Shown here in pieces: positions 927 to 8,903 of a stretch of 64,000 bases of DNA. A program made the translations under genes and the position numbers. The notes beneath the pieces were generated by a model. The model worked only from the letters and a program-made list of their open reading frames with translations. It searched no databases and was not told where the DNA came from. Source of the stretch: Methylophilus sp. TWE2 (GTDB lineage: Bacteria; Pseudomonadota; Gammaproteobacteria; Burkholderiales; Methylophilaceae); assembly GCF_001183865.1 (NCBI RefSeq), contig NZ_CP012020.1, positions 310,001 to 374,000 of the forward strand, given 5' to 3'. Every line of letters starts with the position of its first letter. Position 1 is the stretch's first letter.

Positions 927-2243
927 TCATTGTTTTGGCGTATGACTGCCTGGGCCAAACTGGCCAGCCAGTACCGAGTAGAGCGGGCGGCTGAAGATTC
1001 TGGAGGTGACAGTGGCAATGAGTGAAACGGCCATCAGGCTGATGACCATTTCGTGGCCGTCTATCATTTCCATGACAATAATAAAGGAGGTAATGGGCGC
1101 CTGGGTGACGCCTGCCAGAAAACCTGCCATGCATAAGGCACTGAATGCAATGGCGATCTCGTGGTAGTGAAAGATGGTCGACAGGTCGTAACCGATGCCA
1201 GCGCCTATCGACAGTGCCGGGGCAAAGATGCCGCCGGGGATGCCGCTGAGATAAGTGAAAATGGTGGAGAGGTATTTGACGATAGGGTAATACCAGGTTT
1301 CATTGAGGGTGCCATCTAGCATGGCTTTGGTCATTGAGTAGCCCGAGCCGTTAGCGGCACCGTGGCTGACAATCCTCAGGCCTGCCACGAGTAGTGCGCA
1401 AAAGCCTGTCCAGTAAAGGGGGTGGCGGGTACGGAATGCCGTGATTCTGCCAGGCAGGTTTTCAGAGAATTCGATCAGCGTCCGGCTGAAGATGCCGCCA
1501 GACATGCCGCAAACCAGCCCGCAGATGAGCACGGGCAACAGGATCTCGGTGTGGATGGCGCCGACATTCAGGCTGCCGAAATAGGTGTAATTGCCTTGTA
1601 ATGAAATGGAAACCAGGCCGGACAAGACAATGGCGGTGATCATGACGCCATTGGTTTTTTGTTCAAACTTGCGGCTCAGTTCCTCAATCGCAAATACAAT
1701 CCCTGCCAGGGGGGTGTTAAATGCCGCCGAAATACCTGCTGCGCCGCCCGCCAGAATCAAGTGTCTGGGATACACATGAAAGTGCGCCGGGAAATATCTG
1801 CGGAAACCATGCATGATGCTTGCGCCTACCTGCACCGAGGGACCCTCCCTGCCTGCAGAGAATCCGGCGGCCAGCCCCAGCGTGACAAACAGCATTTTGG
1901 TGACGGCGATTTTAATCGACACCAAATGGCTAATGGACTGGTGTTCTTCGTATTTGAGGGCGGCAATGGTTTGCGGGATGCCGCTACCGGCGGCACCGGC
2001 AAGCCAGGTGCGGGTCACCCAGACAATCAAGATGCCCACCATGGGCATGATCAGGATAGGTAACCACCAGACCGCGGATTGCATGCCATAAAACCAGGCA
2101 ATCGCCTGCTCTGTGGCACGCGCAAATAATACAATCATCAGCCCGGTAATGGCCGCTGCGGACCAGATGATCAACCTGCCCAGCCAGGCATGTAGGTCAG
2201 TCATCTTGATGGATAAGGCGATTCTCCTGAGCTTTTTCAGCAT
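927..2243 (-). CDS. ClC family chloride channel or H+/Cl- antiporter
   Basis: This 438-residue integral membrane protein carries the three ClC signature stretches in order: GSGIPQ (about residue 85), GREGPSVQ (about 130) and GGIFAP (about 340). The glutamate in GREGP corresponds to the gating glutamate of ClC proteins. FAIEE (about 185) holds the residue that acts as the internal proton glutamate in the antiporters, so coupled H+/Cl- exchange is plausible but not certain. There is no C-terminal CBS domain. The ATG at 2243 gives a basic N-terminus before the first membrane helix; an alternative ATG lies 13 codons later. A small DUF2789 gene follows. Confidence 0.9.
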   Translation of the reverse strand: MLKKLRRIALSIKMTDLHAWLGRLIIWSAAAITGLMIVLFARATEQAIAWFYGMQSAVWWLPILIMPMVGILIVWVTRTWLAGAAGSGIPQTIAALKYEEHQSISHLVSIKIAVTKMLFVTLGLAAGFSAGREGPSVQVGASIMHGFRRYFPAHFHVYPRHLILAGGAAGISAAFNTPLAGIVFAIEELSRKFEQKTNGVMITAIVLSGLVSISLQGNYTYFGSLNVGAIHTEILLPVLICGLVCGMSGGIFSRTLIEFSENLPGRITAFRTRHPLYWTGFCALLVAGLRIVSHGAANGSGYSMTKAMLDGTLNETWYYPIVKYLSTIFTYLSGIPGGIFAPALSIGAGIGYDLSTIFHYHEIAIAFSALCMAGFLAGVTQAPITSFIIVMEMIDGHEMVISLMAVSLIATVTSRIFSRPLYSVLAGQFGPGSHTPKQ

Positions 2244-2539
2244 GCTTGGATTGCTTTCATTGATTCATGTTGGGTGAGCGGCAGCATCCATCCGCTAATC
2301 ACTATCAGTCCATAGTCTAACTGAAGCATGGACCAATCCTAAATAAAGTGACCATCCCTGTTGCAGATGTTTCAATTTTTTCTACCTGTTCACAGATCTC
2401 CGGTGTTGTGGAAAAGCCGTTTATAAAAATTTTCAACCTATTTGAAAAATACATGTAAGTAATTTCTTTCTCGTCAGACTAAAGGTGGCAGTCCTCATGG
2501 GCTGGTTCATTTTTTTGATTGTTACTTTTAGGAGATGTG

Positions 2540-2809
2540 ATGAAAACGACTAACAAATTAGCTGCTGCAGCACTTTTGGGCCTGTTTACCGCCAGTGTGA
2601 TGACTGCCACCCCGGCATTCGCAGGCGAAGAGAGCAAGTCTGGCTGTCATGGCAAAGACGATGCCAAGATGGAAAAAGCCAATTGCAAAACGGCAGATGG
2701 TAAAGAGAAGCATGCGTGTAAAGGTAAAAACGCCTGTAAAGGCCAGGGTGGCGATGGCAAGAATGCTTGTAAAGGCCATGGTTCCTGCGCCACGGATGGT
2801 AGCAAGTAA
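2540..2809 (+). CDS. Bufferin-like Cys-rich RiPP precursor, secreted
   Basis: This 89-residue protein has a signal peptide (MKTTNKLAAAALLGLF, likely cleaved after AFA at residue 28). A short lysine- and glycine-rich mature part holds six cysteines at residues 36, 49, 60, 66, 77 and 83. Three of them lie in repeated ACKG units. The ATG at 2540 is chosen over a TTG seven codons earlier because AGGAG lies at 2530-2534. The next gene encodes an MNIO enzyme with its partner domain. In characterised systems such enzymes modify cysteines of secreted peptides that bind copper or other metals (bufferins, HvfA). The precursor role is inferred from this context and the repeats; the modification itself cannot be seen. 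Confidence 0.75.
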   Translation: MKTTNKLAAAALLGLFTASVMTATPAFAGEESKSGCHGKDDAKMEKANCKTADGKEKHACKGKNACKGQGGDGKNACKGHGSCATDGSK

Positions 2810-2840
2810 TCTAGAAACTATCTCAACCAGATTCAAAAAG

Positions 2841-2864
2841 GCAGGGCAGTCACCCTGCTTTTTT
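2841..2864 (+). terminator. Hairpin with T-run between precursor and MNIO genes
   Basis: GCAGGG (2841-2846) and CCCTGC (2853-2858) form a six-pair stem with a six-base loop, followed at once by six T residues. This is a Rho-independent terminator shape. It lies 31 bases after the precursor stop and 15 bases before the start of the maturase gene. A partial terminator here would give more precursor transcript than enzyme transcript, a common arrangement in peptide operons. Confidence 0.7.
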
Positions 2865-2879
2865 GAAAGGAATTTTTAA

Positions 2880-4526
2880 ATGGGCTTAGATTTAGATCAT
2901 CCATCACTCGGTTTCGGACTCGGGCTCAGGCCTCAGCACTATCCCTATATTTTCGAGCATCAACCCAGCGTGGACTGGTTTGAAATTATTTCTGAAAATT
3001 TTATGGATACTGACGGCAAGCCCAAACGCAATCTAGCGCGTATCAAGGAACAGTACCCGGTCGTCATGCACGGAGTGTCCCTGTCGATAGGGAGTATGGA
3101 TCCGCTGAATTCTGAATATTTGACCAAGCTGAAAGCGCTGATGGACTGGGTGAATCCGGCCTGGATTTCCGACCACCTGTGCTGGACTGGCGTGGCGCAT
3201 AAAAATACGCATGATTTGTTGCCGCTGCCTTATACCGAAGAATCGCTCAAGCATATTGTCCACCGTATCCAGCAGGTGCAGGACCGGCTGGGGCGCAGAA
3301 TTGCGCTGGAAAATCCTTCGACGTATCTTGAGTTCAAGCATTCCAAGATGCCGGAAGCCGAGTTTATTGCAGCCATGGCTAATGAAGCTGACTGCCATTT
3401 GCTGCTGGATGTGAATAATGTCTATGTGACCTGTTTTAACCACCGGCTGGACCCGCAAGCCTACCTGGATGCACTGCCTCTGGACAGGGTAATACAGATG
3501 CATCTCTCAGGTCACAGTAATAAAGGTAATCATATTGTGGATACCCACGATGACCATGTGATTGATGAGGTGTGGAACCTCTACAAGTATGTGGTGCATA
3601 GGGCCGGGCGTGTGCCGAATACCATGATTGAGTGGGATGACCGTATCCCAGAATTTCCGGTGTTATCTGCAGAACTGGATAAAGCCAGGGAAGCCGCCAG
3701 GCATGCCGCCGCATTTGCCTTGCCGCAGATTGCGCATGATGAAAGCGTCGTTCCGGTTGAAGAAAGCGTGCCGCTCTTAACGGCACAAACTCATATGCAG
3801 CAGGCGGTGACGTTGGGTGACCGGTTTGATAGTGTGCCTGAGCAGTGGATACGGGCAAAAAATGCCTTTGCGCCGCACGAGCAACTCTCGGTGTATATCA
3901 ATGCTTACCGCTACCGTTTATACGACGTGGTGGCAGATGACTATCCGGTATTGCAGCATTACCTGACCGACAAAAAATTCTCGGACCTGATGTGGGCATT
4001 TGTGGGCGAGGTATTGCCGGACCACTTTAATATTGGCCGCTTTGCACTCAAGCTCCCGGCCTTTATTCAACAGGCTTTACCTGACGATGCCTTTGCGCAT
4101 GCCTTGTGCCAGTTGGAAACCGCGGTGGCGCAAATGACGGACCCTACCGAAACCCAGCCACTGGATGAAGTGGATATTCAGGGGCTGACAGCCGAGACAT
4201 TGTTAGACCTGATACTGTATCCACGCCAGGCGCTGGCCTTGATGCAGTTTGATCAACAAGTGAATGCTTATTACCAGGCCGTGATGGATGGCGAGGTTGC
4301 GGTGCCAGTGGGTGAAGCCCTTTACCTGGCCGTGTTCAGGCACGAGGATGTGGTCTGGCGCATGGAGCTGGAGGCGCAGGAGTTTGGCTTGCTCAGCAAA
4401 TTATTTAGTGGCTCAAGCATAGGCGAGACCTTGGTTGATGTGCAGGAAGAGGCGCAATACAAGATCACTGAATATTTTTCAAAATGGATGCGTAACGGCT
4501 TGCTCGCATCGCATCAATACGCGTAA
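2880..4526 (+). CDS. MNIO (DUF692) maturase fused to DUF2063 partner domain
   Basis: This 548-residue protein has two parts. Residues 1-285 are a DUF692 TIM-barrel of the multinuclear non-haem iron oxidase family. Likely iron ligands are visible at H64 (HGVSLSIG), H99 (SDHLCW), E144 (ENPS), D177 (DVNN), H208 and H212 (HLSGH) and E251 (IEWD). Residues about 320-540 match the DUF2063 (HvfC/BufC-like) partner that recognises the precursor; in the described systems it is usually a separate protein. A glutamate-rich linker joins them. AAAGG at 2866-2870 precedes the ATG. The enzyme is expected to oxidise cysteines of the upstream peptide in the cytoplasm. The exact chemistry (oxazolone-thioamide, thiooxazole or other) cannot be predicted. 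Confidence 0.88.
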
Positions 4527-4553
4527 ACATACACACTGAAAGGGGAAATACCA

Positions 4554-5006
4554 ATGAACGCATTACTGAACCTGTTGATCTGGTGGCCTAAACGCATCGC
4601 CGCGCATTTTGAATGGGCTGGCCCGCTGGTCGCGCGTATCGTGGTTGGCTATACATTTATGCTGACTGGTTGGGCCAAGCTCAATAACTTACCAGCCATC
4701 ATAGAAAACTTCAAAAGCTGGGGTATTCCATTCCCAGAATTGCTGACACCGTTTGTCGCCGGCTGGGAATTTCTTGGCGGGCTTGGCTTGATACTCGGGT
4801 TGATGACGAGAGTGCTGGGCGGAGGATTGGCCGTGGTCATGATCGTCGCCATTATTTCCGCCAAGCTGGCGGATATTGATTCGCTGGAAACCTTGCTGGG
4901 GTTTGAAGAAGCGACTTACTTTGCCGTATTCACCTGGCTGGCGATTTGTGGGGCGGGCAAGGCCTCGCTGGATTATTTTCTAGAGCGCAAACAGTCTGAT
5001 AAGTAA
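4554..5006 (+). CDS. DoxX family membrane protein
   Basis: This 150-residue protein has about four hydrophobic segments and the DoxX pattern: ARIVVGYTFMLTGWAKL near residue 27, then GWEFLGGLGLILGL near 70. It follows the MNIO fusion gene by 27 bases, with an AAAGGGGA ribosome-binding site. DoxX proteins recur in bufferin and HvfABC-type clusters. Their role there is unsettled; a redox or membrane-stress function is often suggested. Co-transcription with the maturase is likely from spacing. Confidence 0.85.
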   Translation: MNALLNLLIWWPKRIAAHFEWAGPLVARIVVGYTFMLTGWAKLNNLPAIIENFKSWGIPFPELLTPFVAGWEFLGGLGLILGLMTRVLGGGLAVVMIVAIISAKLADIDSLETLLGFEEATYFAVFTWLAICGAGKASLDYFLERKQSDK

Positions 5007-5013
5007 ACTAAAA

Positions 5014-5037
5014 CGGTGGCTCCCGCAGGAGCCACCG
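5014..5037. terminator. Perfect 10-bp hairpin between convergent genes
   Basis: CGGTGGCTCC (5014-5023) pairs perfectly with GGAGCCACCG (5028-5037) around a four-base loop. Read on the minus strand it is followed by TTTTAGTTT, so it best fits termination of the SDR gene coming from the right. On the plus strand it lacks a T-run but lies 8 bases after the DoxX stop and may still stabilise that transcript's end. Confidence 0.65.
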
Positions 5038-5170
5038 CTGTGCTGATGACCATTTGTGAGATTTAGCCCCAGGTGGGCTTAAACGCTTGGTATCAACGAT
5101 TCCAGAATACTGCCAATCTCATGCCGGATTCATCGGTCATTTTCTGGTTGGCTTGTCAGAATATCCAAGC

Positions 5171-6070
5171 CTAATGCGTGACGATGCCACCGCTACCGTG
5201 AATATGGCCGTCACCACTGGGCGCATATAAAGTCCCATCGGGGTCTCTGGGCGCTTCTGCGTACTGTTGCCGGTTAGCCTGTTTGGCCGACATTTTCTCC
5301 GCCAGTGTCGGCATCAGGTTTTGCAGGGTGGTATTGACCTTGGACATCATGCCCACCTTGATGTGATGGGTAATGCTGGTGGCGGCCTCCAGAATCGCAT
5401 TGGTCACATCGGCAGGATCAATCTGCGGGGTAGGCAGTTTGGGTTCCTTGTTCATGTAGTTTTTGGCATGCTGTGGATAAGGCGTATTCACCGCCGTGGG
5501 CTGGATTAGAGTGATTGAAATCGGTGCGTGGTCCAGTTCTTGCACTTCTACGCGCAAGGCATCGGTAAAGCCTTTCACCGCATGCTTGGTGGCAGAATAC
5601 ATGCCCTGTAATGGCAGTACCGCTTCAGATACTTCACTACCCAAATTAATCAACGTGCCTTCACTTTTAATCAAATGTGGCAACGCAACCAGAGAGCCAT
5701 ACACCACGCCCCAAAAGTTGATGTCGAATAGTCGGCGATGGTCTTCGTCACTCACTTCATCCAATCGGCCATAGATAGAGACGCCTGCATTATTAACCCA
5801 GGTATCTATGCTACCAAATCGCTCAATAGCGATCTGCGCAACTCTTTCCAACTCCTCACGTTGGCTCACGTCTGCCACGACATACATGGCTTCACCGCCA
5901 TTCTCAATAATCAAATCGACCACATTCATTAATATGTCTTCACTGCGGGCAACCAATACCAGCCTTGCACCTTGCTCTGCCGCAGCATAGGCCGTTGCCA
6001 ACCCGATGCCACTGGAGGCGCCAGTGATCACAATCACTTGTTCGCTGATGGGCGTCATAAGTTTACTCAT
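5171..6070 (-). CDS. SDR family oxidoreductase
   Basis: This 299-residue protein is a classical short-chain dehydrogenase. The cofactor motif TGASSGIG is near residue 17, NNAG near 93, and the catalytic YSATK tyrosine and lysine near residue 158. The first 250 residues form the Rossmann domain. The tail is longer than usual and ends in a glycine/histidine-rich stretch (GDGHIHGSGGIVTH). Substrate is unknown; related proteins are often annotated as general stress or ketoacyl-type reductases. It stands alone and is convergent with the DoxX gene. Confidence 0.85.
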   Translation of the reverse strand: MSKLMTPISEQVIVITGASSGIGLATAYAAAEQGARLVLVARSEDILMNVVDLIIENGGEAMYVVADVSQREELERVAQIAIERFGSIDTWVNNAGVSIYGRLDEVSDEDHRRLFDINFWGVVYGSLVALPHLIKSEGTLINLGSEVSEAVLPLQGMYSATKHAVKGFTDALRVEVQELDHAPISITLIQPTAVNTPYPQHAKNYMNKEPKLPTPQIDPADVTNAILEAATSITHHIKVGMMSKVNTTLQNLMPTLAEKMSAKQANRQQYAEAPRDPDGTLYAPSGDGHIHGSGGIVTH

Positions 6071-6338
6071 GATTTCTTCTCCTTCACTGATAACAGAAAC
6101 GGCGTTTTAAACCGTTAAAGTAACGTGTAGGAAGCAAAGAAATCATCCGGCTAAGACTGATTAAAGCGTCGGAATTTCACATGAGCGTAAATAAGAGTAT
6201 TGTGACTTATAAATGCAGCTTCTTCTGCCGTTATATACAACTAACCGCTGACAAACGAGGTCTATTAGACAAAGGGTGATTTTCAACAGTGCGTTCTGGT
6301 GCAGCTAATCAAATAAACATTGTTGCGGAGGAAATGTG

Positions 6339-8903
6339 ATGCCAGTTGCAAAAGGAGAGAATTTTCCGGATTTTGAGTTGTTTTCACGTTTCTCGCTTGA
6401 TAAGGTTCAAGATTGGATTACCTGGCTAAATGCGGCGGGTGATCTCGTTTATGTCAATGAGGCGGCGTACAGGGCCTTGGGCTATAGCAAAGAAGAGTTC
6501 TATGGGTTGAATATTTTTCAGATTGATGAAAGTTATTCACCTGCATCATGGGCCGCGCATTTTGCCAGTTTAAAAACATTAGGCGCTAAAACGTTTGAAA
6601 CGCAACATCGAAAAAAAGATGGCAGTGTATTGCCCGTGGAAATCAATTCAAATTATATTGAATACAACGGCCATGAATATAACTGTGCCATCGTCAGGCC
6701 CATCATAGAGCGCAAGCGTGCAGAAACACGGGAGCACATCAAAAATCATGTGCTGGATCTGGTTGCCCGCAATGCACCTTTAAAAAGTATTCTCGGCTAC
6801 CTTGTACAAGGGGTGGAAGAAGAAAATCCGGAGCGGTTATGCTCGATTCTGCTACTGGATAAAACCAACCAGGTGCTTAAAAACTATGTGGCGCCCAGTT
6901 TGCCCAAGGGTTATTGCGAGGCCATAGAAAACCTGGAGGTGGGACCCAGTGTGGGTTCATGCGGTACGGCTGCGTTTAGAGGTAAGCCAGTCATTGTGGA
7001 GAACATCCAGACAGATCCCTTGTGGGAGGGTTACCATGCGCTGGCTGCCCAGTATGGGTTGGCGTCGTGCTGGTCTATGCCGATTATTGTTGACCATCAT
7101 GAAGTGATCGGCACCTTCGGGATTTATCACAAAACACCCAAAGTGCCTACGCAAGCCGATCTTGAGCAAATGGAATATCTTTCCAACCTGGCCAGGATTG
7201 CGATCGAGAGGCATCGCGCTGCGGAAGAACTACGGTTATCGGACTCCATTTTCAAGAACACCAGTGAAGCCATGCTAGTGTTGGATATTGATGGTTTGAT
7301 CATCGCGACTAACCCGGCGTTTAGCAGAATCTCCGGCTACACTGCTGAAGAGGTCATTGGGCATCACCCGATGGCGTTTGGCTCACCGCGGCATGACCAG
7401 GATTTTTATAGCGCGATACGCAATGATCTTGAAGAAAATGGATCCTGGCGAGGTGAAATATACGGCGTTAAAAAAAACGGTGAAGAATATATCAACTGGG
7501 TGACAGTGAACACCACCAATGATGAAAAAGGGCAGCCATTCAGACGCGTGGTGTTGTTTTCTGACATTACCGAAAAGAAAAAACACGAAGAAAGTATCTG
7601 GTACGAAGCGAATTACGATGCCTTGACGCATTTGCCGAATCGCCGCTTGTTCCAGGAGCGCCTGCAACAAGAAGTGTTTCGAGCCAACCGCGTGGGCGCT
7701 AAAGTGGTCTTGTTATACTTGGACCTGGATGGTTTCAAGGAGGTGAATGATGCCTTGGGGCATCAAGGCGGAGACCAGTTGCTCATTGAGGTGGCAAGGC
7801 GGCTCATGCATGTGGTCAGGATTACCGACTGCATTTCGCGCCTGGGCGGTGATGAATTTACCGTGACCCTGGTAGATGTCCAGGATTCACAAGCCGCGAC
7901 CAAGGTGGCAACCTCTATCCTGGAGCTATTACAAGCCCCGATCATGATTGATACGCATGCCACTTACATCTCCGCCAGTATTGGGATTACGGTGTACCCT
8001 GACGATGCGGAAAGTGCATCCAGCCTGATAAAGAATGCCGACCAGGCGATGTATGAAGCCAAAAAGCGTGGTCGTAACCAGTATTCTTTTTATACGCAGG
8101 AAATGCAGTATTTGGCGCAACGGCGCACTGAGCAAAAGCGGGAACTCAGGCATGCATTGGCCAATCATGAGTTTGAAATTTATTACCAGCCGGTGGTAGA
8201 GCCCAAGTCTGGGATGGTGACGAAGGCAGAGGCATTACTGCGGTGGCGGCATGGCACCATGGGGATTGTCAGTCCGGCAGAATTCATCCCCTTGGCTGAG
8301 GATGCAGGCCTGATCCATGAAATCGGTAGCTGGGTATTTATACAATGCCTGGAACAGGCACTTCAGTGGCGTAGCCAGTTTCATCCCGACTTTCAAATCA
8401 GTGTCAATGTCTCCCCGGTCCAGTTTAAAAATACGGCTTACTTTGATCACTGGTTCAATTTGCTTGCGTCAACGGCCACCAGTAAACATTGCCTATGCGT
8501 CGAAATTACAGAAGGCGTGTTGTTAGATGCTTCGGACAAGACGTCAGCGCAATTATTACGTTTCCGGGAAGCCGGAGTGGAGGTGGCCATCGATGATTTT
8601 GGCACCGGGTATTCTTCACTGGCTTACATCAAGCGCATCAATGTGGACTATCTCAAAATCGATCGTACTTTTATCACACATCTCGCCAGCGAATCTGCCG
8701 ATTACCCCCTGGTTGAGGCGATCATCATGATGGCCCACAAACTGGGACTCAAGGTCATTGCAGAGGGGGTGGAAACAGAGACACAACTTGCATTACTCAC
8801 CCAGATCGGTTGCGATTATATCCAGGGCTACTGGTACTCCAGACCTTTGTCAGCCGACGCATTCGAGGACTGGCTGACGACGCGGGTACAGCATCGCGCG
8901 TAA
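6339..8903 (+). CDS. PAS-GAF-PAS-GGDEF-EAL cyclic-di-GMP protein
   Basis: This 854-residue cytoplasmic protein has PAS (about 10-130), GAF (135-295), PAS (300-420), GGDEF (430-590) and EAL (605-850) domains. The cyclase signature is intact (RLGGDEF), as are the phosphodiesterase residues (EALLRW and DDFGTGYSSL). Either synthesis or hydrolysis of cyclic di-GMP is therefore possible. No membrane segments are seen, so the signals are probably intracellular. ATG at 6339 is preferred to the GTG one codon earlier because GGAGG lies at 6327-6331. The gene stands alone between an SDR gene and a convergent bestrophin gene. Confidence 0.9.
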   Translation: MPVAKGENFPDFELFSRFSLDKVQDWITWLNAAGDLVYVNEAAYRALGYSKEEFYGLNIFQIDESYSPASWAAHFASLKTLGAKTFETQHRKKDGSVLPVEINSNYIEYNGHEYNCAIVRPIIERKRAETREHIKNHVLDLVARNAPLKSILGYLVQGVEEENPERLCSILLLDKTNQVLKNYVAPSLPKGYCEAIENLEVGPSVGSCGTAAFRGKPVIVENIQTDPLWEGYHALAAQYGLASCWSMPIIVDHHEVIGTFGIYHKTPKVPTQADLEQMEYLSNLARIAIERHRAAEELRLSDSIFKNTSEAMLVLDIDGLIIATNPAFSRISGYTAEEVIGHHPMAFGSPRHDQDFYSAIRNDLEENGSWRGEIYGVKKNGEEYINWVTVNTTNDEKGQPFRRVVLFSDITEKKKHEESIWYEANYDALTHLPNRRLFQERLQQEVFRANRVGAKVVLLYLDLDGFKEVNDALGHQGGDQLLIEVARRLMHVVRITDCISRLGGDEFTVTLVDVQDSQAATKVATSILELLQAPIMIDTHATYISASIGITVYPDDAESASSLIKNADQAMYEAKKRGRNQYSFYTQEMQYLAQRRTEQKRELRHALANHEFEIYYQPVVEPKSGMVTKAEALLRWRHGTMGIVSPAEFIPLAEDAGLIHEIGSWVFIQCLEQALQWRSQFHPDFQISVNVSPVQFKNTAYFDHWFNLLASTATSKHCLCVEITEGVLLDASDKTSAQLLRFREAGVEVAIDDFGTGYSSLAYIKRINVDYLKIDRTFITHLASESADYPLVEAIIMMAHKLGLKVIAEGVETETQLALLTQIGCDYIQGYWYSRPLSADAFEDWLTTRVQHRA

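Follow-up and report, generated by a model that had tools for sequence, protein, structure and literature searches.

The window analyzed here, a 64,000-nucleotide stretch of the Methylophilus sp. TWE2 genome, carries a three-gene operon in which a MNIO enzyme and its DUF2063-RRE partner are naturally fused into one maturase chain. We consider it highly probable that this is a bufferin/captophorin-type RiPP operon, a reading that includes the mechanism proposed below, a probable single origin of the fusion and its horizontal transfer. The natural fusion is real and conserved: a variant, so far little described, of a known RiPP system. New here are the phylogenies, which favor one origin and show the Methylophilus copies to be nested, a host-type promoter, and a hairpin in 21 of 24 fused clusters. 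No study of a natural MNIO-DUF2063 fusion was found in a search of open-access main texts. The first-pass annotation of the window had presented the fusion as a notable departure; it is indeed natural and real, but it is no curiosity of this genome, and a DUF692-DUF2063 protein with the same domain order (MNIO N-terminal) was mentioned in passing in 2009 as one among 216 DUF2063 proteins, in a passage that gives neither its organism nor its function (PMC2954202).

The operon lies on the plus strand at 2540-5006, where the ORF list and Pfam identify genes encoding a precursor peptide (2540..2809), the fused maturase (2880..4526), and a DoxX membrane protein (4554..5006), with intergenic gaps of 70 and 27 bases, respectively. 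A predicted ECF-sigma-type promoter (TGTAAGT-N15-AGACTAA; 2454..2482, plus strand) precedes them, and a terminator-like stem-loop of 15 pairs with a T-run (2832..2867, plus strand) lies between the precursor and enzyme genes. A GC-rich stem of 12 pairs directly 3' of doxX (5012..5039), readable from either strand but found on the minus strand, on which the T-run follows, is the probable end of the operon and a putative terminator. The bufferin-type core as defined in PMC12452194, i.e., precursor, MNIO, DUF2063, and DoxX in one operon, is thus present. The set of a six-Cys precursor, a 548-residue fusion, and DoxX that had been proposed earlier was confirmed by the reading frames, Pfam, and the structural model, and its description as a bufferin-like operon with enzyme and partner in a single chain is upheld by domains, family cut-offs, and fold. 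The DoxX protein (150 aa) scored above the Pfam cut-off (PF07681, 73.8 bits vs 23.6) and below that for HvfX (NF050144, 65.2 bits vs 80), and DoxX was found at only 18 of 27 fused loci, several of which have short flanks only; both observations count against our reading. Flanking genes encode a ClC-type chloride channel (930-2243, minus strand) and an SDR oxidoreductase (5171-6070, minus strand), both assigned by Pfam, and an 855-aa frame (6336-8903, plus strand) with diguanylate cyclase/phosphodiesterase-like motifs recognized by eye.

The maturase is a single uninterrupted 548-aa frame. PF05114 matched residues 12-273 (368.8 bits), PF09836 matched residues 303-396 (40.3 bits, cut-off 27.2), and the fusion exceeded the BufB cut-off (NF050167, 375.9 bits vs 310). 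The approximate domain limits are residues 10-275 for the MNIO and 299-546 for the DUF2063-RRE partner, and the joint is marked by a low-confidence stretch at about residues 287-292 of the AlphaFold2 model (pLDDT 86.5, pTM 0.79). With Foldseek, the MNIO half of the model matched 3bww (TM by target 0.87), and the C-terminal half matched the DUF2063-RRE protein 3dee (TM by target 0.73) over 215 alignment columns, which is approximately the whole length of that 200-residue chain. PF09836 and the modeled fold together identify the C-terminal half as a predicted PME type 1 partner, with a DUF2063 domain followed by an RRE-type domain. A sequence search of this half against the PDB gave no match, and a profile search returned only MNIO structures and two nuclear-receptor chains (E about 0.001-0.002), which we took for chance matches. 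PF22106 (NGO1945_C) was not reported in the fusion, and was reported in the split partner of the genome's second MNIO cluster.

Other joined or fused MNIO proteins have been described. The engineered HvfBC of the HvfABC/oxazolin system (PMC13419390, a preprint of July 2026) has the same order, the MNIO C terminus being joined to the DUF2063-RRE N terminus, but it was joined in the laboratory without a linker, whereas the window fusion is natural and has about 20 residues between the domains. According to the same source, MNIO enzymes have little or no activity unless their partner is present, the artificial fusion was markedly more active than the co-expressed pair, and it was needed to obtain homogeneous, active enzyme for spectroscopy. 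With this engineered precedent, the earlier suggestion that fusion fixes a 1:1 stoichiometry appears reasonable. MovX is also an MNIO fusion, but with a C-terminal RRE only (PMC13419390), and in MNIO-nitroreductase fusions the nitroreductase is unrelated to the partner (PMC12452194). The natural clade described here is the counterpart of the 2026 engineered fusion and offers ready single-chain enzymes for structural and mechanistic work. Our comparisons draw on passages of the papers cited and of PMC8692599, PMC12710340, PMC12141560, and PMC13174530.

The precursor gene (ATG at 2540, stop at 2809) encodes 89 aa, with a signal peptide of about residues 1-28, whose cleavage between TPAFA and GE was assigned by eye, and a core with Cys at residues 36, 49, 60, 66, 77, and 83 that contains one CKT and three CKG motifs. 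The peptide is BufA2-like, but at 31.5 bits it lies below the NF050166 cut-off of 60, and it lacks the Cys/GG C terminus seen in canonical Buf2 peptides; both facts count against our reading, and the former led us to reject formal membership of the BufA2 family. When nine proteins were scored against BufA2, the window peptide and its relatives gave 18.6 to 36.7 bits (none for L087), and a canonical split Methylophilaceae precursor gave 100.6 bits. No Pfam family matched the precursor at E 0.001, including DUF2282 (PF10048), and there was no DUF2282 match in the window's genome. The Buf2 bufferins (BufA2/BufB2/BufC2, the Cys-Lys captophorins) share with this operon a Sec signal peptide, ACKG-type Cys sites, and an MNIO with a DUF2063-RRE protein, there adjacent and here in one chain. 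The Cys-Lys class is described in PMC13097082, where the FonBC enzyme left an NACKG variant unprocessed, and the ACKG sites of the window precursor agree with that class in sequence. HvfA differs in having EGKCG repeats.

A homology search with the maturase gave 7858 proteins at E <= 0.001, from 7998 candidates scored, and both Pfam domains were found in 120 of the 120 matches listed. A scan of species genomes yielded 15 loci, in Methylophilus and in records labeled Alphaproteobacteria or Rickettsiales; the frame is fused in all 15 of these independent loci, which excludes a frameshift or assembly artifact, and such homologs rule out a fusion unique to the window's genome. Among 150 Methylophilaceae genomes, 93 had an MNIO match and ten had the fusion, all ten of the genus Methylophilus. 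In a sample of 398 genomes of the phylum, the window's genome had the sole unbroken full-length match among the matches listed by E-value. An uncultured alphaproteobacterial order, hereafter the donor order in view of the transfer discussed below, matched in 34 of 174 genomes at E <= 1e-70; the frame was fused in 13 of them, and the MNIO domains of four of these matched those of named alphaproteobacterial loci exactly. Fused and split forms coexist in this order. The fusion is therefore rare across the phylum, yet it forms a conserved clade rather than a single-genome curiosity, and enzyme and partner are indeed usually separate in the sampled genomes, as the first-pass annotation had stated. 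At L052 and L053 (G156, G439), split MNIO and partner are in the same frame with one TAA between them, showing how small the step between the two forms is. The MNIO frame of L063, which has a separate partner gene, carries about 300 extra residues N-terminal to the enzyme domain, which may represent either an upstream reading frame left open or a further fusion. The partner half of L088 gave a partial match only (294-449), and L013, a metagenome bin with a fused bufferin-like cluster, is titled Rickettsia typhi, probably wrongly.

In an MNIO tree of 82 rows, the fused enzymes share one region with donor-order split enzymes. When 29 DUF2282-associated enzymes were added (111 rows), fused and donor-order enzymes formed a clade (100/97) nested in a larger group with Buf2-type enzymes (99/96). 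L048 is labeled DUF2282 in this tree though no DUF2282 precursor was found beside it; for the other six donor-order split rows the label comes from Pfam in four, from a separate search for L049, and from a sequence pattern only for L093. The ten Methylophilus rows sit together as a tip clade next to L009 and L013, inside the alphaproteobacterial fused clade. The deepest fused branches are from the donor order, and so is the split clade most closely related to the fused one. Forcing native split and fused Methylophilaceae enzymes together (ten fused and 17 of 20 native split rows, leaving out L032, L036, and L040) was rejected by the AU test (p 7.4e-5, lnL difference 142.7), and vertical descent from native Methylophilaceae enzymes was rejected with it. 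From the tip clade and this rejection of native kinship, we read the phylogeny as horizontal transfer of the operon from the alphaproteobacterial group to Methylophilus.

The fusion itself probably arose once, in the donor order. Several origins, through loss of the overlapping stop and start of adjacent genes and with the clade pattern partly due to chance, would be mechanistically easy given that most split genes are neighbors, often with a 4-base overlap, and L087, L088, and L089 are divergent fused rows. The best MNIO tree also requires two fused/split changes, one change occurring in 11% of bootstrap trees, which counts against a single origin. We nevertheless regard several origins as unlikely: the 26 fused rows are united in the partner-domain tree of 70 rows (clade support 98/89, recovered in 99% of 200 bootstrap trees), and a single fused clade in the MNIO tree was not rejected by the AU test (p 0.554), the likelihood being slightly better when so constrained. 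It is very improbable that the fused operon was ancestral to Methylophilus and that the alphaproteobacterial copies are binning errors or reverse transfers. Many of the alphaproteobacterial records are metagenome bins, including the one implausibly named after Rickettsia typhi, but the branching order just described, the confinement of the fusion within the family to a single genus, and its presence on a 2,054,897-base contig annotated Rickettsiales (P0063) all speak against such a history.

The motifs HG, DH, EN, DVNN, HLSGH, DTHD, and EWD are present in the MNIO half, and H64, H99, E144, D177, N180, H208, D221, H223, E251, and D253 are invariant in 45 of 45 aligned fusions, and their roles in a putative active site are assigned from the likeness of these motifs to those of 3bww and HvfB. 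The sequence that surrounds the proposed catalytic base is EWDD. EWD is shared with Buf1 enzymes, whereas Buf2 enzymes have ERD: W252 occurs in 27/27 fused, 7/7 donor-order split, and 22/29 other DUF2282-type enzymes, and position 252 is R in 44/44 Buf2-type enzymes. D253 is found in all 107 rows tallied. D254, which PMC13097082 ties to Cys-Lys substrates, is present in 20 of the 25 fused enzymes that lack a DUF2282 precursor and in 38 of 44 split Buf2-type enzymes, compared with one of 29 DUF2282-type enzymes from elsewhere. The fused enzyme thus mixes two signatures, W252 as in the DUF2282 type and D254 as in the Cys-Lys type. As a clean marker of precursor type, position 254 is spoiled by D in four of the seven split donor-order enzymes that bear DUF2282, which also counts against our reading.

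Donor-order split relatives of the fusion mostly have DUF2282 precursors, as do Buf1 bufferins. So do two, L088 and L089, of the 27 fused loci that differ from one another in the MNIO domain; at 23 others the upstream peptide is Cys-rich without DUF2282, with CKG motifs usual. Alphaproteobacterial fused precursors have signal peptides of the KLAxAALAGL type, and the leaders nearest to these belong to DUF2282 precursors of the donor order (exceeding composition-shuffled sequences by 17.8, vs 5.6 for DUF2282 precursors elsewhere and 3.5 for Buf2), in a comparison of rows chosen by hand (27/42 Buf2, 14/17 DUF2282 elsewhere, and 6 split donor-order) because automatic precursor picking misplaced some starts. 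The result fits a leader that was kept while the core was exchanged, and a shared organism background could add to the closeness. HvfBC prefers the full-length peptide, and PMC13419390, which reports this, also refers to work on the leader role of the bufferin signal peptide. Tentatively, and at slightly less than even chances, we propose that an MNIO-PME1 pair acting on DUF2282 peptides became fused, that the core mostly changed to the CKG-repeat type with the leader kept, and that the operon then entered Methylophilus and a host envelope-stress ECF regulon. If this is true, the leader and core of these RiPPs can be exchanged independently as modules, and fusion spares the operon the need for a matching partner when it enters a new host. 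Since precursor type, host, and promoter would all have changed, the clade is a clear example of such changes in a copper-type RiPP operon, one in which the modularity of leader, core, and maturase is directly testable.

The hairpin at 2832..2867 has a z score of -3.79, and 1% of 100 dinucleotide shuffles were terminator-like. Counting only clusters with an identified precursor, 0.8 terminator-like hairpins were expected among the 24 fused clusters from dinucleotide shuffles, against the 21 seen, and z was below -2 in 23; split clusters had a T-run hairpin in 9 of 50 (1.9 expected) and z below -2 in 40 of 50. These counts suggest partial termination or RNA stabilization that would keep the precursor above the enzyme.

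The TGTAAG...GACTAA promoter motif at 2454-2482 is column-conserved in an alignment of eight Methylophilus upstream regions. It was found upstream of 9/10 fused Methylophilus clusters and 15/20 split Methylophilaceae clusters, with 0.01 expected from mononucleotide shuffles in each case, and in none of the alphaproteobacterial loci. Alphaproteobacterial clusters have instead GTAAC-N16-18-CGA/T in 14 of 21 (8/15 fused and 6/6 split; 0.25 expected from such shuffles), which resembles the Caulobacter sigma-F sequence GTAACC-N16-CGAA (PMC3511200) and was absent from the 10 fused and 20 split Methylophilaceae clusters. A sigma-70 promoter scan gave 3 sites vs 3.5 expected. The four alphaproteobacterial fused clusters tested (L011, L013, L016, and L017) have NrsF upstream. 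Sigma factor and NrsF genes occur in Buf1, often beside its DUF2282 precursor, and not in Buf2 clusters (PMC12452194), so these alphaproteobacterial clusters combine Buf1-like regulation with a Buf2-like core. The window operon differs from Buf1 in both its precursor and its surroundings, where the ORF list has no sigma or NrsF gene. The Methylophilus operon looks as if it was re-promoted after transfer with a host-type, ECF-like promoter.

The genome of strain TWE2 contains the motif twice, at the bufferin operon and at G000:C1:3007543-3007571 (L132, L133), 117 bases upstream of a frame encoding a DsbD N-terminal domain; a control pattern gave one match in this genome, so the DsbD site alone could be chance. 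Across 22 Methylophilus genomes, a stricter pattern, from which the window's own site departs by one base at each end and is therefore excluded, gave 14 sites vs one for the control. Four lie at bufferin operons, four before Oxidored_molyb-type genes (one checked by Pfam), and the remainder before a DoxX gene, DUF1223, EF-hand, and others. Loci with the motif in Methylophilus and Methylophilaceae (L138, L140-L148, L018, and L030) include Oxidored_molyb-type, DoxX, thioredoxin, DUF1223, and EF-hand genes, the thioredoxin gene being followed by a frame that looks CcdA/DsbD-like by eye. Genes with the motif form a candidate envelope-stress ECF regulon, which would tie Methylophilaceae bufferin operons to DsbD, thioredoxin, and molybdopterin-oxidoreductase genes. 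This history of transfer plus rewiring, together with the natural fusion, is what makes the operon of interest.

In the mechanism we propose, the predicted ECF-type promoter would drive the operon under envelope or metal stress, and many transcripts would end at the hairpin behind the precursor gene, leaving precursor in excess. The RRE/DUF2063 half would hold the signal peptide as leader in the cytoplasm while the MNIO half, by analogy with its family, would oxidize core Cys at C-K-G/T sites to 5-thiooxazoles. The modified peptide would then be exported by Sec and bind Cu(I) in the periplasm, with DoxX in a supporting role at the inner membrane. Product and metal had been described as open; they are less so, given that 5-thiooxazole is the modification made by characterized MNIO-PME1 systems, which in general bind copper (PMC13097082), and by this analogy the peptide is probably copper-binding.

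A product serving mainly periplasmic thiol or oxidative-stress protection, or another metal, rather than copper buffering would suit the motif upstream of DsbD in this genome and of Oxidored_molyb, DoxX, and DUF1223 genes in other Methylophilus, and a passage of PMC12538549 reports related Microbulbifer genes without detectable expression under copper. We hold it to be rather doubtful, given the copper binding general to characterized products and the improved growth that bufferins confer under copper stress (PMC12452194). That the fused chain serves an unrelated precursor elsewhere in the genome, the CKG peptide being a bystander metallothionein, is scarcely credible. Fusions lying consistently away from Cys-rich peptides, named in the first-pass annotation as counter-evidence, were not what we found: a Cys-rich signal-peptide gene is directly upstream at 25 of the 27 fused loci, which come from two bacterial classes, the exceptions being L083 and L084, which lack one in the DNA examined. 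The only other MNIO of the genome, moreover, comes with a split partner and a Cys-rich peptide gene of its own. This second cluster (L002 / L134; G000:C1, about 671000-673700) encodes an ECF sigma factor, a small Cys-containing ORF that is anti-sigma-like by eye, a repeat precursor with KEGKC/KEGxC motifs, a split MNIO, and a split DUF2063-RRE partner.
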